Virus record (IMG/VR): IMGVR_UViG_3300019360_000040
Location: 1-24,357 of that record
DNA: 24,357 bases
Reading direction: 5' to 3' (one strand)
Origin: a virus
Shown here: positions 646-17,251 of the stretch, one piece after another
Numbering within the stretch: position 1 is the first letter of the stretch
Layout: every line of letters begins with the position of its first letter
Translations under genes and position numbers: made by a program
The notes under the pieces: model-generated
The model's input: only the letters and a program-made list of their open reading frames with translations
Told to the model about the DNA's origin: nothing
Database searches by the model: none

Positions 646-651
646 TTTTCT

Positions 652-765: not shown

Positions 766-798
766 GTTTGTTACCGGCTGGAGCTCCGATCCTGACTG

Positions 799-2062: not shown

Positions 2063-2066
2063 AGTA

Positions 2067-2082
2067 GCTCCTATTATGGAGC
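2067..2082 (-). promoter_or_regulatory. Hairpin that can mask the ribosome binding site of the gene starting at 2062
   Basis: On the leftward mRNA, GCTCC pairs with GGAGC across a 6-base loop, and that second arm is the Shine-Dalgarno itself, 4-5 bases before the ATG. An overlapping CCTATT/AATAGG pairing strengthens the fold. If it forms, initiation of the operon's first gene would be reduced until a protein, a ribosome or a temperature change opens it. This is inference from base pairing only. Confidence 0.45.
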
Positions 2083-2143
2083 AATAGGCGAGAATCGTGG
2101 TAGGATACCTCCAGCCACGCGATACGCACTTATCGCTCGGTTA

Positions 2144-2179
2144 GCCCTGCTCGCTGAGGTGTCCGCCTCGCGGCAGGGC
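2144..2179 (-). terminator. Long GC-rich hairpin between two leftward transcription units
   Basis: GCCCTGC at 2144-2150 pairs with GCAGGGC at 2173-2179. Inside, CGC and GAGG pair with GCG and CCTC, so about 14 base pairs form with two single-base bulges. It lies in the 134-bp gap between the wHTH gene (ends 2197) and the gene starting at 2062. No T-run follows, so it could be a factor-dependent terminator, an attenuator or an mRNA processing site. Confidence 0.5.
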
Positions 2180-2196
2180 GTTAGTGTTTCAGGGGA

Positions 2197-2541
2197 CTAG
2201 CTAATCCCCTCGATTACGTAGACGGCTCGCTGCCCCGGCTCGCGGCGCGAAATGACGCGCTCGAATTTCGCCAGCTTCGACAGATAGGTATGCAGCGTAG
2301 CTGTTGAAACGCCGAACCCGGCAGCGAGTTCAGCCAGCGTATGCGGGCGCTCTCGCAACCGCGCCGCCAAGCGTTGCAGGTTAGGGGTGTAGGTTGGCTG
2401 ATAAGCGTACACCCGTTTTCGTTCTCTTATTATCATACCGCCAGTATACCCTGTCACTGGCGGCGGATTGAGTTGGGCAAACTTGCCCGAGGTCCGGTGT
2501 CTGTATATATTGCTCAGTCCGCTTTTTTGCGCCTTTGCCAC
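2197..2541 (-). CDS. Winged-helix DNA-binding regulator, up to 114 aa
   Basis: Residues about 54-112 form a compact winged helix-turn-helix: LRERPHTLAELAAGFGVSTA is the turn-and-recognition region, followed by a Leu-rich helix and a basic wing ending in GQRAVYVIEG. This matches the general MarR/ArsR-like fold used by transcriptional regulators. The longest start is GTG at 2541, overlapping the upstream gene by 28 bases. A better start may be the ATG at 2436 (MIIRERKRVY), which lies 6 bases after a TATACT sequence and would give a shorter, possibly leaderless protein. The start is therefore uncertain. It is a candidate repressor for the operators at 695-711 and 5680-5696. Confidence 0.75.
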   Translation of the reverse strand: MAKAQKSGLSNIYRHRTSGKFAQLNPPPVTGYTGGMIIRERKRVYAYQPTYTPNLQRLAARLRERPHTLAELAAGFGVSTATLHTYLSKLAKFERVISRREPGQRAVYVIEGIS

Positions 2542-2771
2542 CTGGTCTTGATGGCTTTTTTGGCGGCCCTTGTTTTGCGCGGGCTTTTGGCGCGGCCGGC
2601 TTTTTTGGCGGCTTCCGTCTGGCGAAACAGACGGCTGGCGACCGCGTGCATGGCGGGCTGTATCTCAGCAGGCAGTAGCGCCTCAGCGGGCGGCGTTGGC
2701 AAGCGCAGGCAAAAGCCGATGAACTGCTCGGCTAACTCCCTGTCTTTTTTGCGCTCTTCAGGCGTTTTCAA
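2514..2771 (-). CDS. Small basic-tailed protein, 85 aa
   Basis: A TTG start at 2771 overlaps the TGA of the upstream gene, and AGGAGA lies 5 bases before it inside the end of that gene, so start and coupling are well supported. Residues 1-50 are helical (KTPEERKKDRELAEQFIGF...). Residues 55-85 are a strongly basic tail rich in Lys, Arg and Ala, which suggests nucleic-acid binding similar to histone-like tails. I do not recognise the family. Its 3' end overlaps the wHTH frame, so the two may be translated in tandem. Confidence 0.65.
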   Translation of the reverse strand: MKTPEERKKDRELAEQFIGFCLRLPTPPAEALLPAEIQPAMHAVASRLFRQTEAAKKAGRAKSPRKTRAAKKAIKTRWQRRKKAD

Positions 2772-3709
2772 TCTAGTCTCCTTTCGTTTGAATGCCCGCC
2801 AATTAGCATCGGCTCAATCCAGACGGCGCGGCGCTGGCTGAAATCCACGCCGTAGGCTTGTTGGCGGAAATGTCCGCGCCGCCAGTGCAGGCGCGGGCTG
2901 GCGTGTTCGGTGTGCGCGGCGTTTGACTCAGAGGCTTGCCGCGCCGCCCGGTACTCCGCGCCGATAAGGTTGGGCGTCCACAGTTCCAAGCCGCTTTTGC
3001 GGTTGACCTCTTTTTTCCTGCCGCGCCGGTAATGCTCCGGGCGAGCCTGTAGCGCCATCAGAACGCGAAAGACCAATTCCGTAGCCTGGTGTAAAAACGC
3101 CGCCTCGTCGCCTTCTAGCGCCAGATCGAAGGCGTCAACATGGTAATCGTTGGCGGCGATGTCGGCGGTTTCGATAAACGGCGCGTCGGCGGCATTGAGC
3201 GCCCGCGAGAGTAACGGCAAGTCCGCCGCCTGGGTGTAGGCGGTGAACGTGATGAATGAATTATGGTTGAGCGTGGTTGCGCCGCCGCCCGGTATGGTGA
3301 GCGGCTCACCGGCGCGGATTCGCGCATAGCCGAGAAAGCTGACGGGCGCGGCGGCGGTCGCTAAAAACCCGGACGGGAACATGAGAAGCGCCGCCTCGAA
3401 TGGCAAGCGCAAGTCGTCCCAGCGGGTCGCGGGCGGCGGCGTGGTTTGGGAGGCGGCGGCGGCGAATTCCGGCGCGAGGAACAGCGTCGGGACATTCTGC
3501 TGAAAAAGTTTTAGCGCCGCGACGCCGACGGCGCGAAGGGTGTCCGATTGGTTGCCGCCCTGCAAGCCGAGTACGCCGGTGGCGAGAGCGGCGGCGACTG
3601 CTTTCACCGAGCCGTAGTTGCCGATGTCGCGGTAGGCTCGCGGGTAACACCGCCGCCACAGGTCGGGGTAGGCGGTTGCCGCGATTTTGTAAATCTCATC
3701 AAGGAGCAT
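2768..3709 (-). CDS. Conserved phage protein with C-terminal HWRRGH...WIEP motif, 313 aa
   Basis: The N-terminal two thirds are Ala/Leu-rich and helical with no domain I can name. The C-terminus carries a distinctive block: HWRRGHFRQQAYG at about residues 275-287, then R-R-x-V-W-I-E-P-x-L-I-G at about 293-304. I recognise this tail from uncharacterised phage and plasmid proteins but know no function for it. The same tail (R-T-I-W-I-E-P-A-L-V-G) survives in another frame at 5923-6015 as a remnant, so the phage once had a second member. The ATG at 3709 has AGGAGG 9 bases upstream and overlaps the end of 3699-3959 by 11 bases. The gene contains short GC-rich repeats but no frameshift. Confidence 0.75.
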   Translation of the reverse strand: MLLDEIYKIAATAYPDLWRRCYPRAYRDIGNYGSVKAVAAALATGVLGLQGGNQSDTLRAVGVAALKLFQQNVPTLFLAPEFAAAASQTTPPPATRWDDLRLPFEAALLMFPSGFLATAAAPVSFLGYARIRAGEPLTIPGGGATTLNHNSFITFTAYTQAADLPLLSRALNAADAPFIETADIAANDYHVDAFDLALEGDEAAFLHQATELVFRVLMALQARPEHYRRGRKKEVNRKSGLELWTPNLIGAEYRAARQASESNAAHTEHASPRLHWRRGHFRQQAYGVDFSQRRAVWIEPMLIGGHSNERRLD

Positions 3710-3959
3710 GAGATTTATCCTCCTCAGCCGCCCGTTCTGACCACTCGGAGGGCGGCGCTTCCAGTGAAATCTCTACGTCAGGGCGGGTGGCGTAGATTTT
3801 CAAATTTCCATTACGCAACACGCCCGCCTGCTCGTCCGGGATAGAGCGCGGGTCAATCCCCATGACCGCGAAGGCGCGGGCGGCGCGTTTTGCCTGCTGC
3901 TCCCACGCCGCGACGATGCGGGGTGAGAGCAGCACGTTGTCAAGTTGAATGCGCCGCAA
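3699..3959 (-). CDS. Hypothetical small protein, 86 aa
   Basis: A TTG start at 3959 is supported by AGGAGG 9 bases upstream, located in the last codons of the preceding gene, whose TAA ends only 2 bases before. The protein has a helical N-terminal half (LSPRIVAAWEQQAKRAARAF) and a short beta-like stretch (LRNGNLKIYATRPDVEISLE), ending in a charged tail. I do not recognise it. It sits in a tightly packed leftward operon (4849 down to 2197) and overlaps the next gene by 11 bases. Confidence 0.65.
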   Translation of the reverse strand: MRRIQLDNVLLSPRIVAAWEQQAKRAARAFAVMGIDPRSIPDEQAGVLRNGNLKIYATRPDVEISLEAPPSEWSERAAEEDKSHAP

Positions 3960-3961
3960 TT

Positions 3962-4849
3962 TTACAAACCTCCTAGGCGGCGCAAGGCTTCTCCAGCAGA
4001 AATTTTCGTCCTATTAGCTTCGATGAACTTGATTCCATCGACTACTCTAGCTTCTAGGCTAGAGCGAGGTGCAAACGGCACCTCAAAGCGTTTTTCTGTG
4101 CCCCCAAGCGCCGCTTGAAGCGGCAAGAATGGGACGATTCTATAGTATGAAAGTATTAGCGCACCTTCTTTCACTTCTATAAAACTGTTCTCCCTCCATC
4201 CTTCTCTGTAGTTAGGTATCTCTCGTATGTTACCTGCTATTATTGTATCGGGGATTACAGCTCCCCTGGTTTCGGCTTCGTTGATTACCGCTTGCCGGAA
4301 CTTATAAAACTGTTCTTTACTCAACGGCTTTGAGTGGTATGTATCATATTTTATAGGGCAATCTCGCGTTATAAGCCCTTTGAACAAACCCAACAATTCT
4401 CCATCCCCCAGCTTAGGGATTTTATCTATTCCTTTCAGGATTGCCTTCGCGCCGCGTTTCAGCACGTAAGCCGGAATGTTGTTGCTCAGGTAAAGGAATT
4501 TACGAGCCGGGTTGGCCTTTGCTCGCAATTCTTTTACCCGGGCGAGTCTTATACTCTTTTGCTTCTCTTTGGCCTCGTCAAAACTACAATCAAACGGGGC
4601 GATAATAATTTCCCCGCTAATTGATTGAAAACGAGCAAAAAGGTTGCTCTTGAATGGGCGGTGTGACCACCACACCCCGTCTATCTTCTGAATTTCAAAT
4701 TCTTGTCTTATTATTTTCTTGAAAGTTTCAGCAGCGACTGCCGCCTCTTCTTCCAGGGTGACTCTGTGGTTACCTATGTAATCAAAAATGCCCAGTACTT
4801 TGTCGGCTTGATATGTTTTGTTCGCCGTTATAGTGTATATATTTTCCAT
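3962..4849 (-). CDS. Hypothetical protein, 295 aa, first gene of a leftward operon
   Basis: I chose the ATG at 4849 (MENIYTITANKTYQADK) because GGAG lies 5 bases upstream. An ATG at 4870 would add seven residues but has no site. The protein is mixed alpha/beta with many Lys, Ile and Phe, and is lower in GC at the DNA level than its neighbours (for example 4130-4400 and 4540-4720), which hints at separate acquisition. I recognise no catalytic motif, membrane segment or signal peptide. Four genes follow within the same strand with 2-base gaps or overlaps (3959, 3709, 2771, 2541), so it probably heads that transcript. Confidence 0.75.
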   Translation of the reverse strand: MENIYTITANKTYQADKVLGIFDYIGNHRVTLEEEAAVAAETFKKIIRQEFEIQKIDGVWWSHRPFKSNLFARFQSISGEIIIAPFDCSFDEAKEKQKSIRLARVKELRAKANPARKFLYLSNNIPAYVLKRGAKAILKGIDKIPKLGDGELLGLFKGLITRDCPIKYDTYHSKPLSKEQFYKFRQAVINEAETRGAVIPDTIIAGNIREIPNYREGWRENSFIEVKEGALILSYYRIVPFLPLQAALGGTEKRFEVPFAPRSSLEARVVDGIKFIEANRTKISAGEALRRLGGL

Positions 4850-5103
4850 GCGTTCTCCATCCATCCGCATTCAGGGTCTCGGATGGTAGCCACTAAATTT
4901 CACACAAGCCGCGAGCCGCCTGTGAGACGGCAACTCTTATTTTCGCGGCATATATTGGCGTTCTGCCGGAGGCGGCGCTATACTCGCCTCCTATTCGTTG
5001 ACTGCCCCGCGGGGAATCCCTTTCGGGATGCTCTAACCGAGCAGGCTGGCGACTGTTACTCGCCGGAGCCACGCGGGGCATACATAATACTAAACGTAAC
5101 CTC
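4850..5103 (-). promoter_or_regulatory. Structured leader region between two leftward genes
   Basis: On the leftward strand this 254-base gap contains a hairpin CCCGAAAGGG, then CCCCGCGGGG, then CAACGAATAGGAGG, which resembles the leader plus ribosome binding site of the two cassette-driven genes. Here, however, the AGGAGG lies in a perfect 7-bp hairpin (GGAGGCG at 4991-4985 with CGCCTCC at 4974-4968) and no ATG follows at proper spacing. It looks like a degraded third copy of the leader whose gene is gone, or an RNA element controlling the downstream operon. A 62-codon open frame (4893-5081) crosses it, with an ATG 17 bases after a GGAGGT. I consider that frame unlikely to be a gene. Confidence 0.35.
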
Positions 5104-5631
5104 CTACACCACCGGGGCTGCCGGTCGGGCGTATTCAGTAGTATCGCAGTCGCCGGGATTGCGCTGCGAGCCAAGGTGCACCTCACGGCGGCGCAAACCG
5201 CAGACGGCGCAATGCGAGTTAAACTCCAGCGCCGTTCCGCCGAGACCCCAGACGCCTGGGTTCTCGGCGTTACCGCCCTCGCCCGCCGCCGTCCAGTCGT
5301 GGTCGTCGGGGGCGGCGCCGCATCCCTCACCGCCCATGACGGCGCGGATGAGATTTTCGTGGTTTGGCGGAATTTCGACTTCCAGCCGCTGCTCCGACCA
5401 CTCGGAGTCGTCGTCCTCCAAGCGGAAATAGGCGTTGACGACGCGGCCTTCGTCGCCGTCGTAAGAACCCTCTCTGACCCACTCCCGGGTTAGCCGTGCT
5501 GCCTGGAGCTGCGCCGCCGCATCCTGCTCGGACTCATCGCCGGCGGGAATGTAGAAGTAGTCGCAGTGGGACGCCCCGCTCTCCTCGCGGAGCGATACTT
5601 TGTATTCTCTCAAATCTCTCAAATCTCTCAT
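5104..5631 (-). CDS. Conserved phage zinc-ribbon protein, 175 aa
   Basis: The C-terminal part matches an unnamed family I know from phages and plasmids: HDW at 111-113, then ENPGVWGLGG at about 123-132, then H-C-A-V-C-G (140-145) and NPGDCDTTEY at 158-167. The CxxC pair plus later Cys/His suggests a small metal-binding fold, but no activity is known to me. The N-terminal half is acidic. The ATG at 5631 has AGGAG 7 bases upstream and is served by the second copy of the operator-in-spacer promoter, so it is probably an early, repressible gene co-expressed with 337-645. The first codons are a 9-base tandem repeat encoding RDL-RDL-RE. Confidence 0.8.
   Translation of the reverse strand: MRDLRDLREYKVSLREESGASHCDYFYIPAGDESEQDAAAQLQAARLTREWVREGSYDGDEGRVVNAYFRLEDDDSEWSEQRLEVEIPPNHENLIRAVMGGEGCGAAPDDHDWTAAGEGGNAENPGVWGLGGTALEFNSHCAVCGLRRREVHLGSQRNPGDCDTTEYARPAAPVV
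5607..5630 (-). repeat. In-frame 9-base tandem repeat at a start codon
   Basis: The unit CTCTCAAAT (plus strand) repeats almost three times and encodes Arg-Asp-Leu repeats directly after the initiator Met of the gene at 5104-5631. Because the period is a multiple of three, slippage would lengthen or shorten the N-terminus without changing frame. It may also keep the start region of the mRNA unstructured. Confidence 0.6.
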
Positions 5632-5636
5632 TTTAA

Positions 5637-5749
5637 CTCTCCTATTCGTTGATTTCCTTTTCAGGATAGCCCTATTCTATACTAACGGCGTTCGTATGTC
5701 AATAGGCAAATGCAAAAAACGAAATTATTTTTCGTGTCAAGGTTTTTAT
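5637..5749. repeat. Duplicated promoter cassette, copy 2 (direct repeat)
   Basis: This is the second copy of 652-765 with three differences. Its right boundary at 5749 abuts an open but headless coding fragment (5750-5881), so the cassette seems to have landed on, or recombined into, an older gene. The two copies flank the whole leftward block 765-5637. Recombination between them could delete that block. Confidence 0.93.
5674..5702 (-). promoter_or_regulatory. Sigma70-type promoter with operator spacer, copy 2
   Basis: Read leftward: -35 TTGACA (5702-5697, consensus), a 17-base spacer TACGAACGCCGTTAGTA (5696-5680) that is a palindrome, and -10 TAGAAT (5679-5674). The single T/C difference from copy 1 turns TTAACA into a consensus -35, so this copy should be the stronger promoter. 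It drives the gene at 5104-5631 through a leader of about 35 bases. Confidence 0.75.
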
Positions 5750-6884: not shown

Positions 6885-7061
6885 ATGGGCAAGGAAGAGT
6901 TTAAGAACCCGGCAAAGGGCGACAAATTGGTGATTCAGGTAAACAAAGAGACGCACAGGGTGCGCTTCGCCAACGAGTCGGAAAAAAAAGCTGATGTCAT
7001 CATCGAGCCGCGAGATACAGCGAATGGCAACCCGGATAAGCAAACCGCAATTAAAAGTTGA
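6885..7061 (+). CDS. Small beta-rich protein, 58 aa
   Basis: ATG 6885 is chosen because GGAG lies 8 bases upstream; an earlier in-frame ATG pair at 6846/6849 lacks a site. The sequence MGKEEFKNPAKGDKLVIQVN followed by KETHRVRF suggests a short beta-hairpin or beta-grasp-like strand pair with a charged tail. The family is unknown. It overlaps the ParB-like gene by 38 bases, so the two are translated together. Confidence 0.55.
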   Translation: MGKEEFKNPAKGDKLVIQVNKETHRVRFANESEKKADVIIEPRDTANGNPDKQTAIKS

Positions 7062-7665
7062 ACGGCTGCCGCTTGCCGGAATCAAGCTGGAGCCGCAGAA
7101 CTGCCGCCGTCATGCTGAGCGCAATATCGCCACCATCAAAGCCAGCCTTGAGCAATTCGGGCAGCAAAAAGCGATCACGATTGATTATCGCAACTGTTGT
7201 CTGGCAGGCAACGGCACGGTGATTGCCGCCCGCGAACTCGGCTGGACGCACATTGACGCCTGCCGCTCGGCGCTGCGCGGTAAAGATGCGCGGGCGTATA
7301 GCATCGTAGATAATCGCGCCAGCGACCTCAGTGAATTCGATTTTGAAGAGCTAGCCGGACACCTTAAAAGCCTGAAAGCGGCGAACTATAATTTGCAGGC
7401 GCTCGGCTGGGAAGCGCATGAAATTGAGCCGTTGCTGAAAGCCACTTGGACGCCGCCGCCGCTCGCAGAATTACCGACGCGAACCGCAACAACGGAAAGC
7501 CTGTCGGATGAAGACCGGCAGGTGATTGACGAGGCGATCAGCCACTATCGGAAAAGCCACGCCGGACTGACCGACAGCGAATGTCTGGCGCGTATCTGCC
7601 GGTTCTATCTCGACCATGCCGGAACCAAAAAACTCAAGCGGGCAGCTTCCGGCGCTACTGGTTAG
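7024..7665 (+). CDS. ParB/sulfiredoxin-like protein adjacent to DpdA, 213 aa
   Basis: Residues 10-140 form a ParB-like nuclease/N-terminal domain: VERLPLAGIKLEPQNCRRH, then a helix with IKASLEQFGQQKAITID, then AGNGTVIAARELGW (61-74, the equivalent of the ParB GHGR box, here GNGT) and the IVDNRASDLSEFD segment (94-106). This form is common in phage ParB-like proteins. The C-terminal part (155-213) is helical with a basic end. The start at ATG 7024 is preferred over 6994. It overlaps dpdA by 50 bases. In bacterial dpd islands the DpdA transglycosylase works with DpdB, which I recall as carrying a ParB-superfamily domain, so this may be the phage counterpart. The alternative is an unrelated DNA-binding or nuclease role. 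Confidence 0.8.
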   Translation: MATRISKPQLKVERLPLAGIKLEPQNCRRHAERNIATIKASLEQFGQQKAITIDYRNCCLAGNGTVIAARELGWTHIDACRSALRGKDARAYSIVDNRASDLSEFDFEELAGHLKSLKAANYNLQALGWEAHEIEPLLKATWTPPPLAELPTRTATTESLSDEDRQVIDEAISHYRKSHAGLTDSECLARICRFYLDHAGTKKLKRAASGATG

Positions 7666-8365
7666 CTATGTCTACGGCAAGCGGTTTCTGAAACGCCGCC
7701 CTGAACTCGACTACCGCGATTGGGTCTTGGATTCCGGCGCCTACTCCGCTTTTAATAGCCAGATTGAAATTCGCCTCGATGATTACATCGTATTCGCTCG
7801 TCAGCAAATCGAAACCGACCCGACGCTCTCGGAAGTCTTCGCGCTCGATGTGATCGGCGATTATCGCGCCAGCCTCCGAAACACCGAAACGATGTGGAAG
7901 GCGGGCGTCCCGGCGATTCCGTGCTATCACTACGGCGAGCCGGAATGGGTCTTGAAGGAGATTGCCGCGCAGTATCCGAAAATTGCGCTAGGCGGTTGCG
8001 CCCGGGTGCCGGTAGAAACCAAAGTGCAGTGGTCCGCGCAAGTGTTTGCGCGGGTATTTCCCAAACGCATTCACGGCTTCGGCTTCGGCGGCGACCGCTA
8101 CGTGCGCGAATTGCCGTTTCATTCCGTTGACTCGACAAGCTGGGTAATTCAGCCGGGTCGCTACGGCAAGTGGCGGGCTTTCGGCAACCGGAAACTTCGC
8201 AGCCGCTCGGTCTCGATGCTGGCGGAAATCGAATGGTACTTACGGCTCGAACGCGAGGCGCAGGCGCGGTGGGCGGCGGTGATGCGGCAAATGAACACGA
8301 CGGGTCCGGCGGTACGGCTGGCGGTATCGTCAACGCAACTCAAATACTTCGTCAAAGCAGCATGA
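7616..8365 (+). CDS. dpdA: DpdA-type DNA 7-deazaguanine transglycosylase, 249 aa
   Basis: DpdA proteins are relatives of tRNA-guanine transglycosylase that swap guanine in DNA for a 7-deazaguanine. Visible hallmarks are WVLDSGAYSAFN (37-47) with the active-site Asp at 39, EVFALDVIGD (73-82) with a second conserved Asp, PCYHYGEP (102-109), IALGGCARVP (123-132), the phosphate-binding-type IHGFGFGG (152-159) and VDSTSW (171-176). The CxCxxC zinc site of canonical TGT is absent, as expected for short phage forms. Start ATG 7616 lacks a strong ribosome binding site but is the only in-frame one, and it is coupled to the ParB-like gene. The gene overlaps queC by ATGA. Together with queC/D/E and folE it forms a self-contained DNA modification pathway. 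Confidence 0.88.
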   Translation: MPEPKNSSGQLPALLVSYVYGKRFLKRRPELDYRDWVLDSGAYSAFNSQIEIRLDDYIVFARQQIETDPTLSEVFALDVIGDYRASLRNTETMWKAGVPAIPCYHYGEPEWVLKEIAAQYPKIALGGCARVPVETKVQWSAQVFARVFPKRIHGFGFGGDRYVRELPFHSVDSTSWVIQPGRYGKWRAFGNRKLRSRSVSMLAEIEWYLRLEREAQARWAAVMRQMNTTGPAVRLAVSSTQLKYFVKAA

Positions 8366-9045
8366 CAGAACGAACAGGCAGGGTCTTGCTTTATTCCGGC
8401 GGCATGGACAGCTACGCCCTACGGCGATTATGGAAGCCGGACGTAACCCTCTATATCAATCTCGATACCGCATACAGTGAACGCGAAATCGCCCGACTCG
8501 ACGCCGGCGTTACCGTTATTGACTGCCCGACTCTCCGGCAATTCGAGCGCCCCGATAAGATCATTCCGTTACGGAACCTCTTTCTGGTCTGTTTTGCAGC
8601 ACAATTCGGCACACGCATCGCCATCGGCGCTACTGCCGGCGACCGGGTACGTGATAAAGACGAAAAATTCGCTGCCGCGACGAGTAAACTCCTCCGCTAT
8701 ATCTGGCAGCCGGATCACTGGACAACCGGCAAACCAATCTTCGTTGAACTGCCCTTTAAGCAGTATACGAAGGCGCAAATCGTCGGGGCATTTATCCGCG
8801 ACGGCGGCGATCCGCAGGAATTGGCAAGCCGCAGCTTCTCCTGCTACCAGCCGACTGAAGACGGGCAGGAATGCGGCGCGTGCAAACCATGTTTCCGCAA
8901 ATGGGTGGCGTTCAAGCTGAACGGCATCGAGATTGAGCCGTCGGCGCGACCTTATATTGAACGCGAAATCCTGCCGCTGATTCAGGCGGGCAGTTACGGC
9001 AGAGCCGAGGAAGAGCAGGAAATTTTACAGGCCTTGGCGTTATGA
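8362..9045 (+). CDS. queC: 7-cyano-7-deazaguanine (preQ0) synthase QueC, 227 aa
   Basis: QueC uses ATP and ammonia to convert 7-carboxy-7-deazaguanine to preQ0. The N-terminal ATP loop is SGGMDS (12-17), NLDT follows at 33-36, and the C-terminal zinc site is complete: C161, C171, C174 and C177 in CYQPTEDGQECGACKPC. Length is normal for the family. The ATG overlaps the dpdA stop (ATGA), and the gene's own stop overlaps queD the same way, so dpdA, queC and queD are one translationally coupled unit. No glutamine amidotransferase fusion is present, so the cyano product should not be taken further by this protein. Confidence 0.95.
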   Translation: MTERTGRVLLYSGGMDSYALRRLWKPDVTLYINLDTAYSEREIARLDAGVTVIDCPTLRQFERPDKIIPLRNLFLVCFAAQFGTRIAIGATAGDRVRDKDEKFAAATSKLLRYIWQPDHWTTGKPIFVELPFKQYTKAQIVGAFIRDGGDPQELASRSFSCYQPTEDGQECGACKPCFRKWVAFKLNGIEIEPSARPYIEREILPLIQAGSYGRAEEEQEILQALAL

Positions 9046-9428
9046 GGTGGCGACTCGAGAAAGAGTTTCGCTTTGAAGCGGCGCATCAATTACCGGATCA
9101 CCATGGCAAATGCGCCAGATTGCACGGACATAGTTGGCGTGGCGCGTTGATTTGCGAAGGCGATGAATTACAGCAAGAAGGCAGCAGCGCCGGAATGCTG
9201 GTGGATTACGGCGAGATGAGCGCCGCCGTCAAGCCTTTGGTCGAAAATTATCTTGACCATTTTTTCCTCAACGATTCGCTAGACCTCGAAGCGCCGACTT
9301 CCGAAGTGATCGCGCAGTGGATTTACCGGCGCATCAAGCCCGCCTTGCCGGCGCTGGCGGCGGTCAGGATTGAGGAAACTTGCACTTCCGCCTGTATCTA
9401 CAGCGAAGCGCACTCACCTAACGGGTAG
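9042..9428 (+). CDS. queD: 6-carboxy-tetrahydropterin synthase QueD, 128 aa
   Basis: QueD converts dihydroneopterin triphosphate, the FolE product, to 6-carboxy-tetrahydropterin. The zinc ligands are visible as H15 (AAHQLPDH), H28 and H30 (LHGH). The catalytic Cys is C24 in HGKC, and the Asp72-His73 pair (LDH) and the Glu of EETC (111-112) complete the active site. PTSEVIAQWI at 85-94 is the usual signature helix. The ATG overlaps the queC stop. The gene ends the rightward unit and is followed by a 9-bp hairpin. Confidence 0.95.
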   Translation: MRWRLEKEFRFEAAHQLPDHHGKCARLHGHSWRGALICEGDELQQEGSSAGMLVDYGEMSAAVKPLVENYLDHFFLNDSLDLEAPTSEVIAQWIYRRIKPALPALAAVRIEETCTSACIYSEAHSPNG

Positions 9429-9431
9429 TAA

Positions 9432-9460
9432 AACGCTGTCTAGCTGTAGCTGACAGCGTT
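9432..9460 (+). terminator. Terminator-like hairpin after queD
   Basis: AACGCTGTC (9432-9440) pairs with GACAGCGTT (9452-9460). Inside the loop AGC/GCT pair again around TGTA. No long T-run follows directly, though TTTTTT appears at 9478-9483. It closes the ParB-dpdA-queC-queD transcript before the convergent ribbon-helix-helix gene. Confidence 0.65.
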
Positions 9461-9471
9461 CGATTTGACTG

Positions 9472-9636
9472 TTATGGTTTTTTGGCGTTCTGATTGCCCG
9501 CCGGCGCGCCCGACTTGCGCGCGGGTAATCCAAGGGCGCGACGCACATAACCGGATACGGATAAACCGGCGGCTTGCGCTTGCGTTTTGAGGAGCCGTAG
9601 CTCCTCGTCAGTCAACGAGAGTAAAATGCGCCGCAT
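9472..9636 (-). CDS. Ribbon-helix-helix-like small DNA-binding protein, 54 aa
   Basis: This short leftward frame reads MRRILLSLTDEELRLLKTQA then QAAGLSVSGYVRRALGLPAR, a typical ribbon-helix-helix layout: one short strand with basic residues, helix 1 (TDEELRLLKTQAQAAG) and helix 2 starting at S-V-S-G-Y-V-R-R-A-L. The tail is Lys/Ala/Gly-rich. It is the third gene of the HNH operon, with a TAATG overlap of the preceding stop. It may autoregulate the divergent promoter region at 10208-10268, which contains palindromic repeats, but that link is inference. Confidence 0.75.
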   Translation of the reverse strand: MRRILLSLTDEELRLLKTQAQAAGLSVSGYVRRALGLPARKSGAPAGNQNAKKP

Positions 9637-9830
9637 TAGAGGGTTTCTCCCGTCGTCTGGCTGCGGAGCAAACTTATTTGCCCGCTCTCAGCAATCGAAT
9701 AATACCGGCGGCGCGTCGGCTCTTCGCAGCGCACAGTGACGACGCGCCGCGCGGTAAAAACGGCAAGCTGATTATCCGGCGATAAGGTCTCGCGGATGCG
9801 CTGAACTGCTAGTTGCTGATGGTGGTTCAT
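9636..9830 (-). CDS. Hypothetical small protein, 64 aa
   Basis: The ATG at 9830 overlaps the HNH stop (ATGA), and TGGAGG lies 4 bases upstream, so the start is secure. The protein is MNHHQQLAVQRIRETL..., then a beta-like stretch (NQLAVFTARRVVTVRCEE) and a second one (RRRYYSIAESGQISLL). I do not recognise it. It is the middle gene of the three-gene leftward cassette. Confidence 0.65.
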   Translation of the reverse strand: MNHHQQLAVQRIRETLSPDNQLAVFTARRVVTVRCEEPTRRRYYSIAESGQISLLRSQTTGETL

Positions 9831-10207
9831 TTTGCCTCCACTTCAGCGTCGCCTACTTTATCGGAAAAATAGGCTTTCGCTAATTTTATATAAGGTTTCA
9901 AGCTACGCCTGACATTGCGCCGGATGTGGGCGCGGGTGGCAGCCGAAGCAAAGCGGTTAAGCGGCGTGTCCTGACGGCGGCTATTGCAACTGCGGCAAGC
10001 CGTTATGAGGTTTGTCTCGTGGTTCGCGCCGCCGTCAACGCGGCAGACGAGATGGTCGAGGGTGATGTCACGGGGGTCAGCGCCGTGCAAATCGCGCAAA
10101 CAATAGATGCACGTCATATTGTCCCGTAAATTGATGGCGAGCCGCTTTTCAGGGCGTATCCAATTGCCGCCACTCAATTTCTTGTACCCTTTAACCTTCG
10201 TTCTCAT
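9827..10207 (-). CDS. HNH endonuclease, 126 aa
   Basis: The HNH fold is clear: C33-x2-C36 (CIYC), the catalytic DH pair D51-H52 in ITLDHLVCRVDGG, N66 in HETNLITA, then C71-x2-C74-N75 (CRSCNSRR). Basic regions flank the domain. I chose the ATG at 10207 and not the longer open frame reaching 10558, because the extension runs antisense through queE and a promoter (TTGCAA, 18 bases, TATAAC) sits directly in front of this ATG, leaving almost no leader. The cassette separates queD from queE in inverted orientation, as a homing endonuclease or moron would. It could be a free-standing homing enzyme or a packaging/defence nuclease. Confidence 0.88.
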   Translation of the reverse strand: MRTKVKGYKKLSGGNWIRPEKRLAINLRDNMTCIYCLRDLHGADPRDITLDHLVCRVDGGANHETNLITACRSCNSRRQDTPLNRFASAATRAHIRRNVRRSLKPYIKLAKAYFSDKVGDAEVEAK

Positions 10208-10268
10208 AATCAATGTTATATCATATTGATTTAGGAGATTGCAAGAACAATGTGATATAAGATTGATT
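10208..10268. promoter_or_regulatory. Divergent promoter pair built on a 23-bp inverted repeat (HNH and queE-folE)
   Basis: The 23 bases at 10208-10230, read leftward, match the 23 bases at 10246-10268, read rightward, at 20 positions. Each copy contains an extended -10 element (TGATATAAC leftward, TGATATAAG rightward) and is itself an imperfect palindrome with AATCAAT/ATTGATT-type arms. A TTGCAA at 10239-10244 gives the leftward promoter a -35 with an 18-base spacer. The rightward one has only the extended -10. One regulator could bind both copies and control the endonuclease and the preQ0 genes together. Confidence 0.65.
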
Positions 10269-10283
10269 TTTTTTTGAAAAAAA

Positions 10284-10892
10284 TTGAAAACCTTTGCCAT
10301 TAACGAGATCTTCCTGAGCCTACAGGGAGAAGGGGGACGAGCCGGAACCGCCAATGTATTCGTGAGATTTGCCGGGTGCAACCTACGTTGCGCCGCCGAC
10401 AGCCCGGAAGAAAACGGGCAATTTGATTGTGATACGGAGTTTAGCGGCGGCAGAAAATTTACGGTCGCGGACTTGCTCGCGGAAGTTGAGCGCAGTAGCG
10501 GAGCGTGTCGCTGGGTAATCCTGACCGGCGGCGAACCGCTTTTGCAGGTTGACACCAATTTGCTGGCGGCGCTACACGACGCGGGTTACCAGATTGCGGT
10601 CGAAACTAACGGGACACAGCCGTTGCCGGTCGGGCTAGATTGGGTGTGTGTAAGTCCGAAAACTGCCGAACACACTCTAAAAGTTTATGAAGCCGATGAG
10701 GTCAAGTACGTTCGTCACGCCGGACAAGCGTTGCCGAAGCCGACTATAAAAGCCGCGCATTATTTCCTCTCGCCCGCCTGGGACGCACACGGCTTGAACC
10801 GCGACAACCTGGCGTGGTGCATCGAACTCGTAAAAGAGAATCCGCAGTGGAAACTTAGTCTACAGCAGCATAAATGGTGGAAAATCCGCTAA
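10284..10892 (+). CDS. queE: 7-carboxy-7-deazaguanine synthase QueE (radical SAM), 202 aa
   Basis: QueE is the radical S-adenosylmethionine enzyme that turns 6-carboxy-tetrahydropterin into 7-carboxy-7-deazaguanine. The N-terminal EIFLSLQGEGGRAGTANVFV and the cofactor-binding LTGGEPLLQ (80-88) are typical. The cluster cysteines are C32, C36 and C49 (GCNLRC, then FDCDTEF), that is CX3CX12C. The usual motif is CX3CX2C, so ten residues are inserted before the last Cys. The start is TTG at 10284, forced by an upstream in-frame TGA. It has no Shine-Dalgarno and follows a T- and A-rich leader of about 16 bases. The gene overlaps folE by 19 bases. Confidence 0.92.
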   Translation: MKTFAINEIFLSLQGEGGRAGTANVFVRFAGCNLRCAADSPEENGQFDCDTEFSGGRKFTVADLLAEVERSSGACRWVILTGGEPLLQVDTNLLAALHDAGYQIAVETNGTQPLPVGLDWVCVSPKTAEHTLKVYEADEVKYVRHAGQALPKPTIKAAHYFLSPAWDAHGLNRDNLAWCIELVKENPQWKLSLQQHKWWKIR

Positions 10893-11449
10893 CTCCAACA
10901 TTACTTATTCAACAAGCCGTGCGGCAGATTATCGGGGCGCTCGGTGAAGACCCGGCGCGAGATGGCTTAACCAAAACGCCGTCACGGGTGGCTCGCGCCT
11001 TTGAAGAGCTTACCTCCGGCTACACACAGAATCCTTCGGTTATTCTGGCCTCGCAATTCGACAATGAAGATTACGACGAGATGATCATCGTGAAGGATGT
11101 GGGATTCACCTCGCTTTGCGAACATCATTTGCTGCCGTTTACCGGCTTTGCCACGATTGCCTATATCCCGGCGCACGATAAAATCGTCGGCATCTCAAAG
11201 CTGGCGCGACTGGTCGAATGCTTTGCCCGCCGCTTGCAGGTGCAGGAACGTATCACTACGCAAATCGCACACGCGATTAACGAGAACCTCATGCCGCAAG
11301 GTGTCGGCGTAATCGTCCGGGCGACGCATTCCTGCATGGCGATTCGCGGCGTTCAAAAAGCCGCCGAAACCGTCACGAGTTGTATGTTGGGAGCGTTTCG
11401 CGTGGATGCCGGAGCGCGCGCTGAATTGATGGCGCTGGCGAAAAACTAA
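10874..11449 (+). CDS. folE: GTP cyclohydrolase I FolE, 191 aa
   Basis: FolE opens GTP to dihydroneopterin triphosphate, the first step to both folate and preQ0; here it feeds QueD. Key residues are the zinc ligands C82 and H85 in LCEHHLLPF and C154 in ATHSCMAIRG, with H152 and the VGISKLARLVE helix (105-115) also conserved. Length and order match the type IA enzyme. The ATG lies inside the last codons of queE, so the two are co-translated. The 3' end overlaps the convergent gene at 11446 by 4 bases and has no obvious terminator. Confidence 0.96.
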   Translation: MVENPLTPTLLIQQAVRQIIGALGEDPARDGLTKTPSRVARAFEELTSGYTQNPSVILASQFDNEDYDEMIIVKDVGFTSLCEHHLLPFTGFATIAYIPAHDKIVGISKLARLVECFARRLQVQERITTQIAHAINENLMPQGVGVIVRATHSCMAIRGVQKAAETVTSCMLGAFRVDAGARAELMALAKN

Positions 11450-11976: not shown

Positions 11977-12801
11977 GTGAGCAAACAAGCCCTTTCTGCA
12001 AAACATCGCAAGCCGAAAAACCCGGAGCGTCCGGTCTGCGGCGCAAAACTGAAAAACGGCAAAGGCCGCTGCCCGATCAACATTCTCTACCCGAATGGCA
12101 GATGCCGCGTCCACGGCGGACCGACGCCAGCCGGCATCGCCGCGCCAAATTTCAAGCATGGTCGCCGCTCGCGCTATCAGCCCTTCTTTGTCGGCGCCGG
12201 CTTGGAGCAGGTCGTCAAGGAAGAACTTGGCGACTTGCAACTGCACTCTTCCGACGACGCTCTTGAGCTATTGCAACGGCGGGTCATGCTGCTGTTGAGT
12301 CGTGGCTACGGGATTGAATTTCTCAGTGCGTTGCTGAAAGGCTGGGACGTGCTGGAAAAAGCCTTGCTCGACAAAGATGCTGAAGCGCAGCGCCGCGCCC
12401 TCGTGGTCTTGCGCGACCTCATCAAAGAAGGCGGCGCAGAAGCCGGGCGCTGGAAAGAGATTTACCGGCTGGAAGAGCAGATGGATAAGCTGCGTGACCG
12501 CGCCAGCCAGAAGGAATACCGCCATCACAAATTGCAGATCGAGCGGCAGAAGCTGGTGCGCGTCGAACTCGTCAAGCAGCTGATGAGCGGGCTGGTCTAC
12601 GCCGCCAAAGATGTTATCCGGCAGGCGCTCGATGAAGCCGGACGCCCCGATTTAGCGCAGGATGCTATCACCGCACTTTTTAACGAATACTGCCGTTTCG
12701 CCGGAAGCGGACCTAAACAACTGGATTCAGGAGAAGATTCTCGACGGGCAGACTCCGAAGCAGTTGCTGCGGAGTGGCAGGCAACCGCCGAACCTGCTTG
12801 A
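11977..12801 (+). CDS. Putative terminase small subunit with N-terminal zinc motif, 274 aa
   Basis: Position directly before the large terminase and overlap with it suggest the DNA-recognition subunit of the packaging motor. The N-terminus carries a Cys/His motif, C21, C32, C43 and H46 (CGAKLKNGKGRC...NGRCRVHGG), then PTPAGIAAPNFKHGRRS, a combination I know from small proteins beside phage terminases. The rest is helical with a long coiled-coil-like segment (residues about 140-200, with EEQMDKLRDRASQKEYRHHK). The start is GTG at 11977 with a poor ribosome binding site. An ATG at 11970 is in another frame. The subunit call is by context. Confidence 0.7.
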   Translation: MSKQALSAKHRKPKNPERPVCGAKLKNGKGRCPINILYPNGRCRVHGGPTPAGIAAPNFKHGRRSRYQPFFVGAGLEQVVKEELGDLQLHSSDDALELLQRRVMLLLSRGYGIEFLSALLKGWDVLEKALLDKDAEAQRRALVVLRDLIKEGGAEAGRWKEIYRLEEQMDKLRDRASQKEYRHHKLQIERQKLVRVELVKQLMSGLVYAAKDVIRQALDEAGRPDLAQDAITALFNEYCRFAGSGPKQLDSGEDSRRADSEAVAAEWQATAEPA

Positions 12802-14155
12802 ACGGGAGCGCCGGGCACGACAAGGCAGGGGCGAGAAAAAAGAGCCGCCGACCTTCCGCGGCGCCAATCTGGAAGCCCAAACCACAATCCTGCACGAATG
12901 GTTGCTTTCCGGTCCGGCAGAAACCGGCAAGACGTTTGCCGCGCTCTGGCTATTGGATTCACTGCTGCGGCAAACCGCAAAGGCGCAGGCGATTTTAGCT
13001 CGCAAACTCCAGGTCTCAATCTGGGGGACGGTTCTTATCACCTATCAACGCATTCAGGATCTACGGGGGGCGATGGGGGATAAGCCTGTCATGGCTTATG
13101 GCGGGCAAAAGCCTGAATGGTACGACTATCCGAATGGCGCGCGACTGTGGATTGGCGGCTTGGACAATCCGCAAAAAATCCTTTCCGGTGAACGCGATTT
13201 CATCTACATCAACCAGGCGGAAGAATTTACGATTGACGACTGGGAAACGCTGCTGACGCGCTGTACCGGACGCGGCGCGGTAACGCCAACCCCGATGCTC
13301 TTTGGCGATTGCAATCCGGGCGCCGAAGATCACTGGATTCTGAAACGTCCGACGCTCAAGCTCTTTCACAGCAAACACCTTGATAACCCGGCGCTCTATG
13401 ATGAGGACGGCAGGTTGACAGCGCAGGGTAAGCGCACGATAACAACCTTGCGGTCGCTCACCGGCATTCGTAAAGCCCGCCTGTGTGACGGACTGTGGGT
13501 TGGCGCCGAAGGGCAATACTTTGAGGTCTGGGACGCTGACCTGCATACCTCTGAAGCCTTCGAGATTCCAGAAGACTGGCCGGTTTGGGGCGCTCTGGAT
13601 TATGGCTGGGCACACCCCACTGCCTTCGGACTCTTCACGCAAGACAATGACGGGGTGATTTATCTTGTCGGCGAACACATTCAGCATAAATGGCTAGCGC
13701 CACAACACTGCAAAGCGATTCGTCGGCTGGCGGAAGGCGCCGGAATCCACTGGCGCCGGGTTCGTCAGATTGTTGCCGGTCACGATGTTTTTCAACAGCG
13801 CGGCGCCAGCGACGGGAAAACGATTGCCGATCAATACAGGGACGCGACAGACCCGGAAACGGGCGACTTTATCGGGATGAACCTTGAAAAGGCGACGATT
13901 GACCGCATCACCGGCGCCCAGGAATTACTTGCCCGTTTGGGGAACCCGGAAGTGGGAATCAAACCGACGCTTAAATTTTTCAACAACTGTCGTCGAACGA
14001 TTGCCTCGATGACGCGCATGGTTTGTGACCCCCGTGACCCCGAAGATGTTAAGAAGGTTAATGCCGACGTCAATGGCGAGGGTGGCGACGACGAATTCGA
14101 CATGTGCCGCTATGGCGCTATGGTTAAGGCTGTTTACGTTCCTTCCGTTTATTAA
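12662..14155 (+). CDS. terL: Terminase large subunit (ATPase-nuclease), up to 497 aa
   Basis: The DNA-packaging motor is clear. Walker A is GPAETGKT (84-91), Walker B is FIYINQAEE (180-188), the coupling motif is FGDCNP (214-219), and the RNase H-like nuclease has D313 in GALDYGWAHP, D375 in AGHDVF and the acidic cluster GGDDEFDMCRYG (474-485). The first ATG (12662) would overlap the small subunit by 140 bases, and the first 50 or so residues are not typical. A TTG near 12759 or another internal codon may be the true start. The portal ATG follows the stop by 2 bases. Confidence 0.93.
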   Translation: MLSPHFLTNTAVSPEADLNNWIQEKILDGQTPKQLLRSGRQPPNLLERERRARQGRGEKKEPPTFRGANLEAQTTILHEWLLSGPAETGKTFAALWLLDSLLRQTAKAQAILARKLQVSIWGTVLITYQRIQDLRGAMGDKPVMAYGGQKPEWYDYPNGARLWIGGLDNPQKILSGERDFIYINQAEEFTIDDWETLLTRCTGRGAVTPTPMLFGDCNPGAEDHWILKRPTLKLFHSKHLDNPALYDEDGRLTAQGKRTITTLRSLTGIRKARLCDGLWVGAEGQYFEVWDADLHTSEAFEIPEDWPVWGALDYGWAHPTAFGLFTQDNDGVIYLVGEHIQHKWLAPQHCKAIRRLAEGAGIHWRRVRQIVAGHDVFQQRGASDGKTIADQYRDATDPETGDFIGMNLEKATIDRITGAQELLARLGNPEVGIKPTLKFFNNCRRTIASMTRMVCDPRDPEDVKKVNADVNGEGGDDEFDMCRYGAMVKAVYVPSVY

Positions 14156-14157
14156 CG

Positions 14158-15441
14158 ATGTCATTGTGGAATTCCGTTAAAGGCGCGTTTCGGCGCGCCA
14201 CCGTGGCCTTCAGTATTGTCCCGAATTACTTTGCCAATGTTCGCTGGCTGATTTCCAGTCAGTACTTGAACCTGGTTAAGGAGGGCTATAAAAAGAATTC
14301 CGTCGTTTATTCTTGTGTACGTCTGCTGTCGCAATCAGTCCCTGAAGCGCCATTAAAATTCTACCGGCAAAATGATGGCATGGAGACCGAAGCGCCGGAG
14401 CATGAATTCCGTGAGCTTATCCGCCATCCGAATGCGCTGCAAACCGAGTACGAATTCTGGGAACTCACGGTTATCCAGCTCTCCATGGTTGGACAGTCCT
14501 ATTGGTGGAAGCAGCGCGGCAAAAGCGGGCGAGTGATCGCCCTCTGGCCCCTCAGACCCGACCGCGTTACGCCGATTTACACGAATCAGTTGCCACCGCT
14601 GCAAGCGTGGTATTACAACCTGGAAGGCACACTTTATGAGCTTCCGGCTGATGATGTTCTGAACTTCAACTACCCTGACCCTGATGATGTAACCGGCGGC
14701 ATTGTGGAAGGTTTTGGACCGGCACAGGCGCTCAGGCGCGATGCCGATATTGACAATCAGGCGACGCGCTTTGCCTTCGCTTTGTTGAATAATTACGCCA
14801 TGCCTGGCACGGTGCTGACCACGAAAGCCAAGCTGGACCAAAAGCAAGCCGATGAGTTGAAAGAGCGATTTGCCCGCAAATACGGGCAAATGCATATCGG
14901 CGAACCGGCGGTCATTGACGGCGATACGACGATCCAGCAGCTGTCATTTAATCTCCGCGATTTGCAATTCAGTGGACTGCGCGATAACGATGAAGCGCGA
15001 ATCTGCGCGGGCTTTGGGGTCCCGGCGGTTCTGGTAGGCGTTAAAGTTGGGTTGGAAAAAGCTCACTTTTCCAACCAGCGGGAGGCACGCGAGTTTTTTG
15101 CCGAGACGACGCTGTCGATTCTCTGGACTAGGCTTGCCGACCGCATTAACGCCGACCCGGATTTCAGTGAGCCTAATTTACAGGCGCGCTTTGATACCTC
15201 GAATGTCCGCTCCCTGCAAGGACAGCATAACGAACATGCGACCCGTTATTACGACGGGCTGAAACTCGGCGCCGTAACCATCAATGAATATCGAACCAAA
15301 GGTTTGCGCCTGCCGTCCTTGCCGGATTGTGATGTCCGGGTAATGCCGACGACGTTTATGGAGGTTGGCGATGGCGGGCTGCCCGTGCTGCCGGTGGTTG
15401 ATGAGCCGGTGAAGCCAAATGGCGCGGCGAAGCCGAATTAG
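14158..15441 (+). CDS. Portal protein (HK97-type), 427 aa
   Basis: Twelve copies form the ring through which DNA enters the capsid. Recognisable portal features are NSVVYSCVRLLSQSVPEAPLKFY at about 43-65, WWKQRGKSGRVIALWPLRPDRV at about 119-140, the YELPADDVLNFNYPD segment, QQLSFNLRDLQFSGLRD with DNDEARICAGFGVPAVLVG at about 260-295, and the later LADRINADPDF. The C-terminal tail is Pro- and Val-rich. It is close-packed between terminase and protease as in HK97-like phages. No clear ribosome binding site is visible, so it may be coupled to terL. Confidence 0.95.
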   Translation: MSLWNSVKGAFRRATVAFSIVPNYFANVRWLISSQYLNLVKEGYKKNSVVYSCVRLLSQSVPEAPLKFYRQNDGMETEAPEHEFRELIRHPNALQTEYEFWELTVIQLSMVGQSYWWKQRGKSGRVIALWPLRPDRVTPIYTNQLPPLQAWYYNLEGTLYELPADDVLNFNYPDPDDVTGGIVEGFGPAQALRRDADIDNQATRFAFALLNNYAMPGTVLTTKAKLDQKQADELKERFARKYGQMHIGEPAVIDGDTTIQQLSFNLRDLQFSGLRDNDEARICAGFGVPAVLVGVKVGLEKAHFSNQREAREFFAETTLSILWTRLADRINADPDFSEPNLQARFDTSNVRSLQGQHNEHATRYYDGLKLGAVTINEYRTKGLRLPSLPDCDVRVMPTTFMEVGDGGLPVLPVVDEPVKPNGAAKPN

Positions 15442-15517: not shown

Positions 15518-17251
15518 ATGAACTATTCCTCCACGCAGTTTGAACTGCCGGATTATCTCGCCAAAAAGGTGCGCCGTTTGGGAACAGGCATCCCCGACGA
15601 TGAACTGGCGGCGGACGGTCGTGAAGCGCTCACCCATATCACCGTCAAATACGGCATCCACACGACGGACGTGGAGCTGGTGCAGCTTACGCTCGATAAG
15701 CAAGCGCCAGTCGCCGTGACGTTCGGCAAAACCGCGCTGTTCAAAGCCTCGGAGTCGGGAACCGATGTTGACGTGCTGTATGTTTCGGTTATCAGCCCGG
15801 AACTGGAAGCCCTGAACCAAAAACTAACCGAGCGACTGGCTCATACCACGACGCAATCATCTTATGTGCCCCACATCACAATTGCCTATCTCAAAGCAGG
15901 TGAAGGCGAAAAATATGTCGGCAGCGAATTTCTTGCGGCGCAGGAGTTTACCTTTACCCTTCTGACGTTTGCTGCTTCTGACGGGAATCGCTATTCGATT
16001 TATCTGAGCAACGACGGAGTAAAAACAATGTTTGAAGCAGTCAAATTCACCAACGACGAGAAGACGGAAATCACCGGACCGGGCATCCCTTTCGGCGGGC
16101 CGTTTAAGAACCGCGCTGGCGAAGATTCCGATTTGCATGGTGAGTTTTTCACCAAGAATACCAACTTTGCCTTTGATTGGTTCCAGGAGCGTCCGCTGCT
16201 TTACCAACATGGCAAAGACAATGACGTAAAGCTGGTTCCGGTCGGGCGCGTCAAGAGCTGGATGGTCGGCGACAAAGCCGTCACCACGCAAGCCATTCTC
16301 GATAAAAATAGCGAATACTTTGAGGCGATCCGGGAGGCGGTAGATAAAGGCGGTCTCTACTTCTCGTCCGGCGCCATGGGGCATCTGGTGCAGATTGACA
16401 AGCAGACTGGTGAGATTAAGACCTGGCCGTGGGTCGAACTCAGTCTCACGCCGACACCCGCCAATTTCTACGCCTCGGTGGATTTCGTCACAGCGCAAAA
16501 GCATTTCAAAGACGCCGGCATCGAATTCAATCTGACCGACCCTGCTGCCGACAAGCAACCTGCCGATAAAAAATCGTCCGGGCGGCTGGTCATTGCCGGC
16601 GTAAAGAGCCTCTTTGACGACGTACTGGCAGAGATCATGGAGCCGGATATGTGGCAACTTTATAACGCCTACATTCGGGTTGTCTGCCAGATCAAGCAAC
16701 TGCATGGTGTCACGGAAGGCACATCCGTGTCTATAAATCCGGAGGCTATGCTAGATGAAGCTGTGGCGCAATTTATGGGGCTGTTGCGTGAAGTCTCCCT
16801 CAAGTTTATCAGCGACGAGTCGGATAATTATTACCCATACCGGAGCGTCGAACTCGAAAAAATCAAAGCGCTAATTGACGCGAAACAAGACGGGGCGATG
16901 GTGCGCCTCAGTCTGGTGGACCACTCCGCTGCGGTGATGGCTGCCAACGAGGAGTTATTCGGGCGTGTGAAGGTAATCTGCACCGAGCGAGTAAAGGACG
17001 GCCGGGTGTTATCGGCGGCAAACCGTGACAAGCTGCGAACCTTGCATACCAAGATCGGCGAAGCGCATTCGCAGATGGGTGACCTGCTGGACCAGACCGA
17101 ACCGAAGAAAGCGGAAGCAGAAATGGCTGATAAGATGATAGAGCAGCCGGACAGTAAAAAGTCCGATGGCGCTCTATTGCTCAAAGCCCGCGCGCTATCG
17201 TTATTGGCATTTCAGAGCGGCGATGCCGCAACGGAGATAATCAATGATTAA
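15518..17251 (+). CDS. Fusion: 2H phosphoesterase - prohead protease - scaffold, about 577 aa
   Basis: Three parts lie in one frame. Residues 1-170 are a 2H phosphoesterase domain with two HxT motifs, H40-I-T42 (ALTHITVKYGI) and H119-I-T121 (YVPHITIAYLK). Residues 171-330 are a head maturation protease: H231 in LLYQHGKDNDVKLVPVGRV, the GGLYFSSGAMGH motif with Ser283/284, and WPWVELSLTPTPA at 303-315. Residues 330-577 are a helical scaffold-like region ending in RVLSAANRDKLRTLHTKIG-type coiled coil. ATG 15518 (MNYSSTQFELPDY) is preferred; TTG 15458 would add 20 residues. An internal ATG at 16028 with a good ribosome binding site would give protease-scaffold alone. The 2H fold is shared with phage Acb1, which cuts CBASS cyclic nucleotides. 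The substrate here is unknown. Confidence 0.88.
   Translation: MNYSSTQFELPDYLAKKVRRLGTGIPDDELAADGREALTHITVKYGIHTTDVELVQLTLDKQAPVAVTFGKTALFKASESGTDVDVLYVSVISPELEALNQKLTERLAHTTTQSSYVPHITIAYLKAGEGEKYVGSEFLAAQEFTFTLLTFAASDGNRYSIYLSNDGVKTMFEAVKFTNDEKTEITGPGIPFGGPFKNRAGEDSDLHGEFFTKNTNFAFDWFQERPLLYQHGKDNDVKLVPVGRVKSWMVGDKAVTTQAILDKNSEYFEAIREAVDKGGLYFSSGAMGHLVQIDKQTGEIKTWPWVELSLTPTPANFYASVDFVTAQKHFKDAGIEFNLTDPAADKQPADKKSSGRLVIAGVKSLFDDVLAEIMEPDMWQLYNAYIRVVCQIKQLHGVTEGTSVSINPEAMLDEAVAQFMGLLREVSLKFISDESDNYYPYRSVELEKIKALIDAKQDGAMVRLSLVDHSAAVMAANEELFGRVKVICTERVKDGRVLSAANRDKLRTLHTKIGEAHSQMGDLLDQTEPKKAEAEMADKMIEQPDSKKSDGALLLKARALSLLAFQSGDAATEIIND
16016..16030 (+). promoter_or_regulatory. Internal ribosome binding site and start codon inside the protease fusion
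   Basis: GGAG (16016-16019) stands 8 bases before an in-frame ATG (16028-16030) exactly at the border between the 2H domain and the prohead protease. This spacing is better than at either candidate start of the full-length fusion. It predicts that most protease-scaffold is made without the 2H domain and that the full-length protein is a minor product. Confidence 0.7.

Follow-up and report, generated by a model that had tools for sequence, protein, structure and literature searches.

Known cassettes and the locus in the window

The six-gene order ParB, DpdA, QueC, QueD, QueE and FolE has been reported in mycobacteriophage CRB2 (PMC6884629, PMC6392294), and in the related phage Rosebush the modified base dPreQ0 was measured at ~28% of G (PMC6884629). 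Escherichia phage CAjan also contains dPreQ0, and dpdA was required genetically for the modification (PMC6884629). Here, a cassette with the same gene order was analyzed in the window, which is the entire IMG/VR record IMGVR_UViG_3300019360_000040 (24,357 bp). The queC position of this cassette was occupied by a divergent member of the QueC family, which belonged to one phage clade named QueC* in this analysis. The cassette is very probably a 7-deazaguanine DNA modification system, and we conclude that QueC* performs the job of QueC with a rebuilt substrate pocket.

All six genes were intact and lay directly upstream of the terminase and portal genes. Adjacent reading frames overlapped by a few to ~50 bases in an operon-like manner, with the queD/queE junction as the sole exception. 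The genes were as follows.

6994..7665 (start 6994 or 7024), plus strand: ParB-like gene, possible DpdB-like helper, overlapping dpdA (phrog_620, E 5.7e-30)
7616..8365, plus strand: dpdA, predicted compact DNA-guanine transglycosylase of 249 aa with the fold of tRNA-guanine transglycosylases (TGT) (phrog_887, E 5.6e-33)
8362..9045, plus strand: queC*, divergent QueC-family gene of 227 aa in the queC position (PF06508, E 1.4e-14)
9042..9428, plus strand: queD, 6-carboxytetrahydropterin synthase (TIGR03367, 92.4 bits, above the cut-off of 89.25)
10284..10892, plus strand: queE, radical-SAM 7-carboxy-7-deazaguanine synthase with a TTG start (TIGR04508, E 5.2e-52; phrog_2076, E 3e-31)
10874..11449, plus strand: folE, GTP cyclohydrolase I (TIGR00063, 226.8 bits, above the cut-off of 181.6)

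Family profiles confirmed the five genes that a first-pass annotation had named between positions 7024 and 11449 (FolE, QueD, QueE, QueC and DpdA) as intact. Two items in this range were absent from that annotation, namely the ParB-like gene overlapping dpdA and an insertion of ~855 bp between queD and queE. The best model for QueE, TIGR04508, was matched over the full length but at 176.7 bits, under the cut-off of 240; homology and context lead us to classify the product of 10284-10892 as QueE-like. The three cysteines of the radical-SAM cluster were present with the spacing CX3CX12C in both the window and its closest relative, versus CX3CX2C. Reading this spacing as a defect was rejected, since phage QueE proteins often vary in it; the spacings seen in phages ranged widely (3-2, 3-8, 3-9, 3-13, 14-2, 16-3 and 5-6).

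Rosebush was likened to the window through published work, whereas Saguaro, Sonali and MT835752 were compared as records. Mycobacterium phage Saguaro, like the window, carries ParB, DpdA, QueC, QueD, QueE and FolE, followed by the small and large terminase subunits. The Saguaro/B2/CRB2 cassette agreed with that of the window in gene content, order, ParB/DpdA overlap and position before the terminase; however, the Saguaro QueC has the motifs YxQxH and YPDC, whereas in the window the enzyme is QueC*, DpdA is shorter and the cassette contains an HNH insertion. The same six genes were found in Arthrobacter phage Sonali, and human fecal phage MT835752 contained them in the same order followed by the terminase, differing in the HNH insertion. 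CAjan shares the full FolE/QueD/QueE/QueC/DpdA set and a homologous DpdA with the window, but its gene order is different, no ParB adjoins dpdA, and its QueC is canonical. The six-gene cassette type is already known, and the window adds a further example of it.

The closest relative of the window was a prophage (locus L154) on a 204-kb contig (JACQDB010000138.1) of an Acidobacteria groundwater metagenome-assembled genome. It carried the same cassette, with identities of 75% for QueC*, 68% for DpdA and 76% for the terminase. The cassette lay in a long run of phage genes adjoining bacterial-looking genes, and by our reading the phage is probably of the contractile-tail type.

QueC* in the position of QueC

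The window QueC* exceeded the Pfam cut-off of PF06508 but reached only 28.2 bits with TIGR00364, against a cut-off of 150.3, and pairwise comparison with CAjan QueC gave no detectable similarity (E 0.10). By tblastn (E 1e-5), only 4 of the 50,697 phage records matched it, and searching IMG/VR with a profile gave 61 QueC* loci. In a tree of 116 proteins, 48 QueC* sequences (that of the window and 47 others) formed one group with a support of 96/89, which was present in 98% of bootstrap trees. Matches from Chloroflexi and Methylobacterium in the genome scan were other QueC relatives and were not counted as QueC*. The model of the window protein had a mean predicted local distance difference test score (pLDDT) of 95.7 and showed the QueC fold. 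The best match by VIA-align was QueC 3bl5 (Z 17.0, 2.8 Å over 175 residues), followed by QatC (Z 15.8) and Cap9 (Z 14.6).

To describe the motifs, 45 non-redundant QueC* proteins were compared with 55 canonical proteins including that of E. coli, whose numbering is used. Every protein of both groups had SGGxDS, Glu42, Arg99, Asn100, Asp133 and Lys165, and of the 45 QueC* proteins 44-45 retained the zinc cysteines (42-45 when Tyr189 was included). In the window protein, the ATP loop SGGMDS occupied residues 12-17, IPLRN at residues 68-72 retained the RN pair, and the cysteines were C161, C171, C174 and C177. QueC* and the canonical QueC of E. coli and B. subtilis have in common the fold, the ATP loop, P-x-R-N, the guanine-reading Asp, Lys165, Cys-Tyr and the zinc cysteines.

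The genomic context of the clade was examined in 37 non-redundant loci from a scan that was run without dpdA as a criterion. A dpdA gene was nearby in 36 of them, and queE, folE and queD were present in 25, 22 and 21, respectively, within the DNA stretch examined for each locus. Canonical queC was found in none of the 37. Likewise, none of the 29 phage records with QueC* contained another QueC-family gene, the largest of these being phage NCTB with 257,877 bases. Among GTDB genomes, QueC* was located on five contigs (L154-L158), each time adjoined by other cassette genes, and in L154 and L155 the cassette was seen continuing into the terminase genes. The sequences establish the genes, their families and the conservation of the cassette, with QueC* appearing as the sole QueC-family gene in such phages. 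On the DpdA tree, whose bootstrap was not fully settled, the QueC* status changed ~13 times, and at least seven of the changes were forced by well-supported branches. Because of these changes, related DpdAs appear to be served by QueC in some phages and by QueC* in others, and this alternation favors either a common product or a DpdA tolerating several products.

At three loci (L043, L045 and L124), QueC* was directly followed by a second, distinct QueC-like gene with a TGG[MI]DS loop and zinc cysteines. In published work, the Gat-QueC of phage 9g did not restore tRNA queuosine to an E. coli queC mutant (PMC6884629).

DpdA and the ParB-like protein

The window DpdA was 27% identical to the CAjan DpdA (E 5e-19). 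The TGT-type active-site residues Asp39, Asp78 and Asp172 were present, and all three were invariant across 93 non-redundant DpdA proteins. Its AlphaFold model (mean pLDDT 82.6) had the TGT fold; the best 50 rows of VIA-align were all TGTs with Z from 13.8 to 13.0, which settled the assignment, as Foldseek alone gave poor matches. The A4 profile matched DpdA 7ui4 (E 1.8e-7). The length of 249 aa is short, yet many phage DpdAs have 232-260 aa. Pfam TGT PF01702, the tRNA TGT family, had no match anywhere in the window, owing to the divergence of DpdA, as the phage DpdA models and the fold did match. A scan of viral contigs with a single DpdA sequence found nothing, and alignments were needed instead. 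The window DpdA is predicted to swap bases in DNA.

In the window, a ParB-type domain adjoined dpdA, as it does for DpdB, the bacterial DpdA helper. DpdB of PADLOC was unmatched in the window; the same scan also gave no match for the window DpdA. The ParB-like gene was within 300 nt of dpdA in 48 of the 51 loci carrying both, and this close adjacency supports a probable shared role of the two proteins. It was present in 10 of the 37 QueC* loci. Since many DpdA cassettes have no ParB, the protein is not obligatory.

Two arrangements of DpdA genes were observed in addition. In locus L073 (6518-11161), dpdA occurred twice and a methyltransferase-like gene took the queC position; the second DpdA of this locus was the closest to the window DpdA in IMG/VR (~50%). 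In L010 (6674-8872), a DpdA-like open reading frame (ORF) of 732 aa with an apparent intein-like insertion adjoined QueC*.

Proposed pathway and alternative explanations

We infer the following enzyme activities, ParB role and final base from the gene families and their context. FolE, QueD and QueE would convert GTP to 7-carboxy-7-deazaguanine (CDG). QueC* would activate the CDG carboxylate with ATP and then amidate it, most likely on to the nitrile preQ0, and DpdA would exchange guanine in DNA for the product of QueC*, probably with the assistance of the ParB-like protein on the DNA. QueC* would substitute for QueC by means of a rebuilt pocket that retains the Asp facing the guanine edge but has lost the Tyr used for stacking. 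We regard the proposal as a whole, with the cassette modifying phage DNA, QueC* in the role of QueC and preQ0 as the most likely product, as rather probable.

Several observations weigh against this proposal. Tyr35 and Tyr131 were each present in 55 of 55 canonical QueC proteins and in 0 of 45 QueC* proteins. His39 was present in 54 of 55 canonical proteins versus none of the 45 (Tyr was there in 32), and Cys134 in 55 of 55 versus none (Lys was there in 37). Alanine mutants of Tyr35, Arg99, Tyr131 or Tyr189 of E. coli QueC were inactive (PMC13329287), and two of these residues, for which Y35A and Y131A abolish the activity, are the ones missing from QueC*. The QueC slot also varied among relatives of the cassette, being occupied by Gat-QueC-like genes (L075, L122), tandem QueC-like genes or the methyltransferase-like gene of L073. 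After the insertion, queE starts with TTG and is not preceded by an obvious ribosome-binding site. Finally, the window is a fragment; we take it as part of a phage genome because the end of the record falls inside the structural genes.

Of the YxQxHxxE motif E42 alone was retained in QueC*, the segment around Ser72 was absent from every QueC*, and the loop ahead of Asp133 was two residues shorter in nearly all examples listed; in the YPDC region, all 45 proteins kept Asp133. The Tyr131 counterpart in Cap9 stacks against the deazaguanine, and the Asp133 counterpart reads the Watson-Crick edge of the base. The same Tyr/Asp pair occurs in B. subtilis QueC, where by analogy the Asp would read the guanine edge (PMC13279940). 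Because Asp133 is retained and the stacking Tyr is gone, QueC* probably still binds 7-deazaguanine in a rebuilt pocket. Tyr38 of QueC* might conceivably take over the base stacking.

The claim of a full GTP-to-preQ0 route in the first-pass annotation holds for the genes, all of which were there, but QueC lacked YxQxHxxE and YPDC, so the route itself is read from context. The annotation had also listed no QueF, DpdC-like, amidotransferase-QueC fusion or ArcS-like gene, and none was recognized within the 24-kb fragment. As the record is only a fragment, tailoring genes may lie beyond it. The predicted dPreQ0 is plausible, though less secure than had been stated, since QueC is non-canonical and the record is a fragment; we place its chance of being the main base somewhat above even. 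The further claim of protection from many restriction enzymes was too strong. Plasmid DNA with dPreQ0 showed no EcoRI resistance, and the DNAs of Rosebush and CAjan resisted only some restriction enzymes, with patterns differing between them (PMC6884629), so broad protection should not be assumed for the window phage.

The alternative that survived best was a change in the QueC* reaction itself, which could halt at the amide (ADG) or attach CDG to a different amine instead of ammonia, with DpdA then inserting dADG or an unknown amide. Such a change would fit the absence of Tyr35 and Tyr131 from every QueC*, the Lys replacing Cys134 in 37 of 45 and the missing Ser72 segment, as well as the variable QueC slot and the tandem loci, where the two steps of QueC may be split between genes. 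However, QueC* and canonical QueC alternated beside close DpdAs, which favors a common product, and most QueC* loci had no second QueC-like gene. We therefore consider this alternative possible but unlikely. There is a similarly small, or slightly smaller, chance that, through the changed reaction, a large set of phages (of Bacteroidota, Acidobacteriota and others) carries a DNA base that is not dPreQ0 and may be undescribed. For the proposed pathway, the new point lies in a widespread QueC-family clade of phages, which fills the QueC position in DNA modification cassettes without the residues that a 2026 study deemed the signature of preQ0 synthesis. Either this signature is too narrow and a different pocket works, or QueC* phages make a different DNA base. 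Culturable QueC* material for deciding between the two is available in Bacteroides phage BS162P1 and the prophage of Phocaeicola plebeius DSM 17135.

A decaying cassette, in which the insertion severs queE-folE from the upstream operon, would be another explanation. The insertion contained the following features.

9429..10283, no strand: 855-bp insertion separating queD from queE, not present in L154
9827..10207, minus strand: HNH endonuclease gene within the insertion, given at its shortest likely length (the ORF extends to 10300 or 10558; PF01844, E 3.7e-9)
9475..9636, minus strand: 54-aa ORF, ribbon-helix-helix-like by sequence reading

A 64-aa ORF was also present, and all three ORFs of the insertion were on the opposite strand. 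In L154, the queD stop and the queE start overlapped (TAATG), and no insertion at this junction was found in L001, L155 or the other six-gene cassettes examined. The opposite-strand insertion, the TTG start of queE and a hairpin 3' of queD would be consistent with decay. Nevertheless, queE and folE were full-length with conserved motifs, and terminator-like matches around the insertion were about at chance level. HNH insertions are frequent in active phage genomes. Decay is accordingly judged improbable.

It is more improbable still that QueC* and DpdA target a protein instead of DNA, as Cap9 and Cap10 do in the type IV cyclic-oligonucleotide-based antiphage signaling system (CBASS). Cap9 was ranked first for the QueC* model by Foldseek alone, the QueC* profile aligned to Cap9 with few gaps, and Cap10 is described as a TGT-family protein (PMC11996544). 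Cap9 resembles QueC* in its QueC-family fold and short length; however, VIA-align placed QueC over Cap9 (Z 17.0 versus 14.6), and Cap9 keeps YxDC and a CD-NTase partner, whereas QueC* has no YxDC and sits with folE, queD, queE, dpdA and the ParB-like gene. No CD-NTase-like gene was recognized around the window cassette by family scans. QatC of the Qat system shares the QueC-family fold, but its extensions are long and Thr replaces both Tyr and Asp, whereas QueC* keeps the Asp. By sequence, QueC* fits neither the Cap9 nor the QatC signature.

An auxiliary pathway supplying host tRNA queuosine, which uses the same precursor enzymes, is the least credible explanation, as QueF was absent from the window and the L154 contig, the L154 host bin had its own canonical queC and queF, and the transglycosylase was of the phage DpdA type with the tRNA TGT family unmatched. 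These two host genes were located on other contigs of the bin, and because of them the probable host itself is predicted to make preQ0, although the phage carries QueC*. The DpdC family PF03883 and DUF5591 (PF17884, the ArcS marker) had no match in the bin.

Context genes and further observations

Profile scans of the window placed the packaging and head region downstream of the cassette.

12662..14155, plus strand: terminase large subunit (phrog_2, E 1.3e-23)
14158..15441, plus strand: portal protein (PF04860, E 2e-66)
17244-18632: major head protein

In the L154 prophage, PP-loop (PAPS-reductase-like), ParB-like and methyltransferase-like genes were consecutive by sequence reading (L177, contig positions 50067-52420, G001:C46). 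In the window, positions 340-5631 held a block of minus-strand genes with family matches that were marginal at best and lacking for several genes; unknown tailoring or early functions could be hidden there. A direct repeat of 103 nt (91% identical) was located at 646-748 and 5631-5733, each copy directly upstream of a minus-strand gene, and is perhaps a shared promoter or operator.

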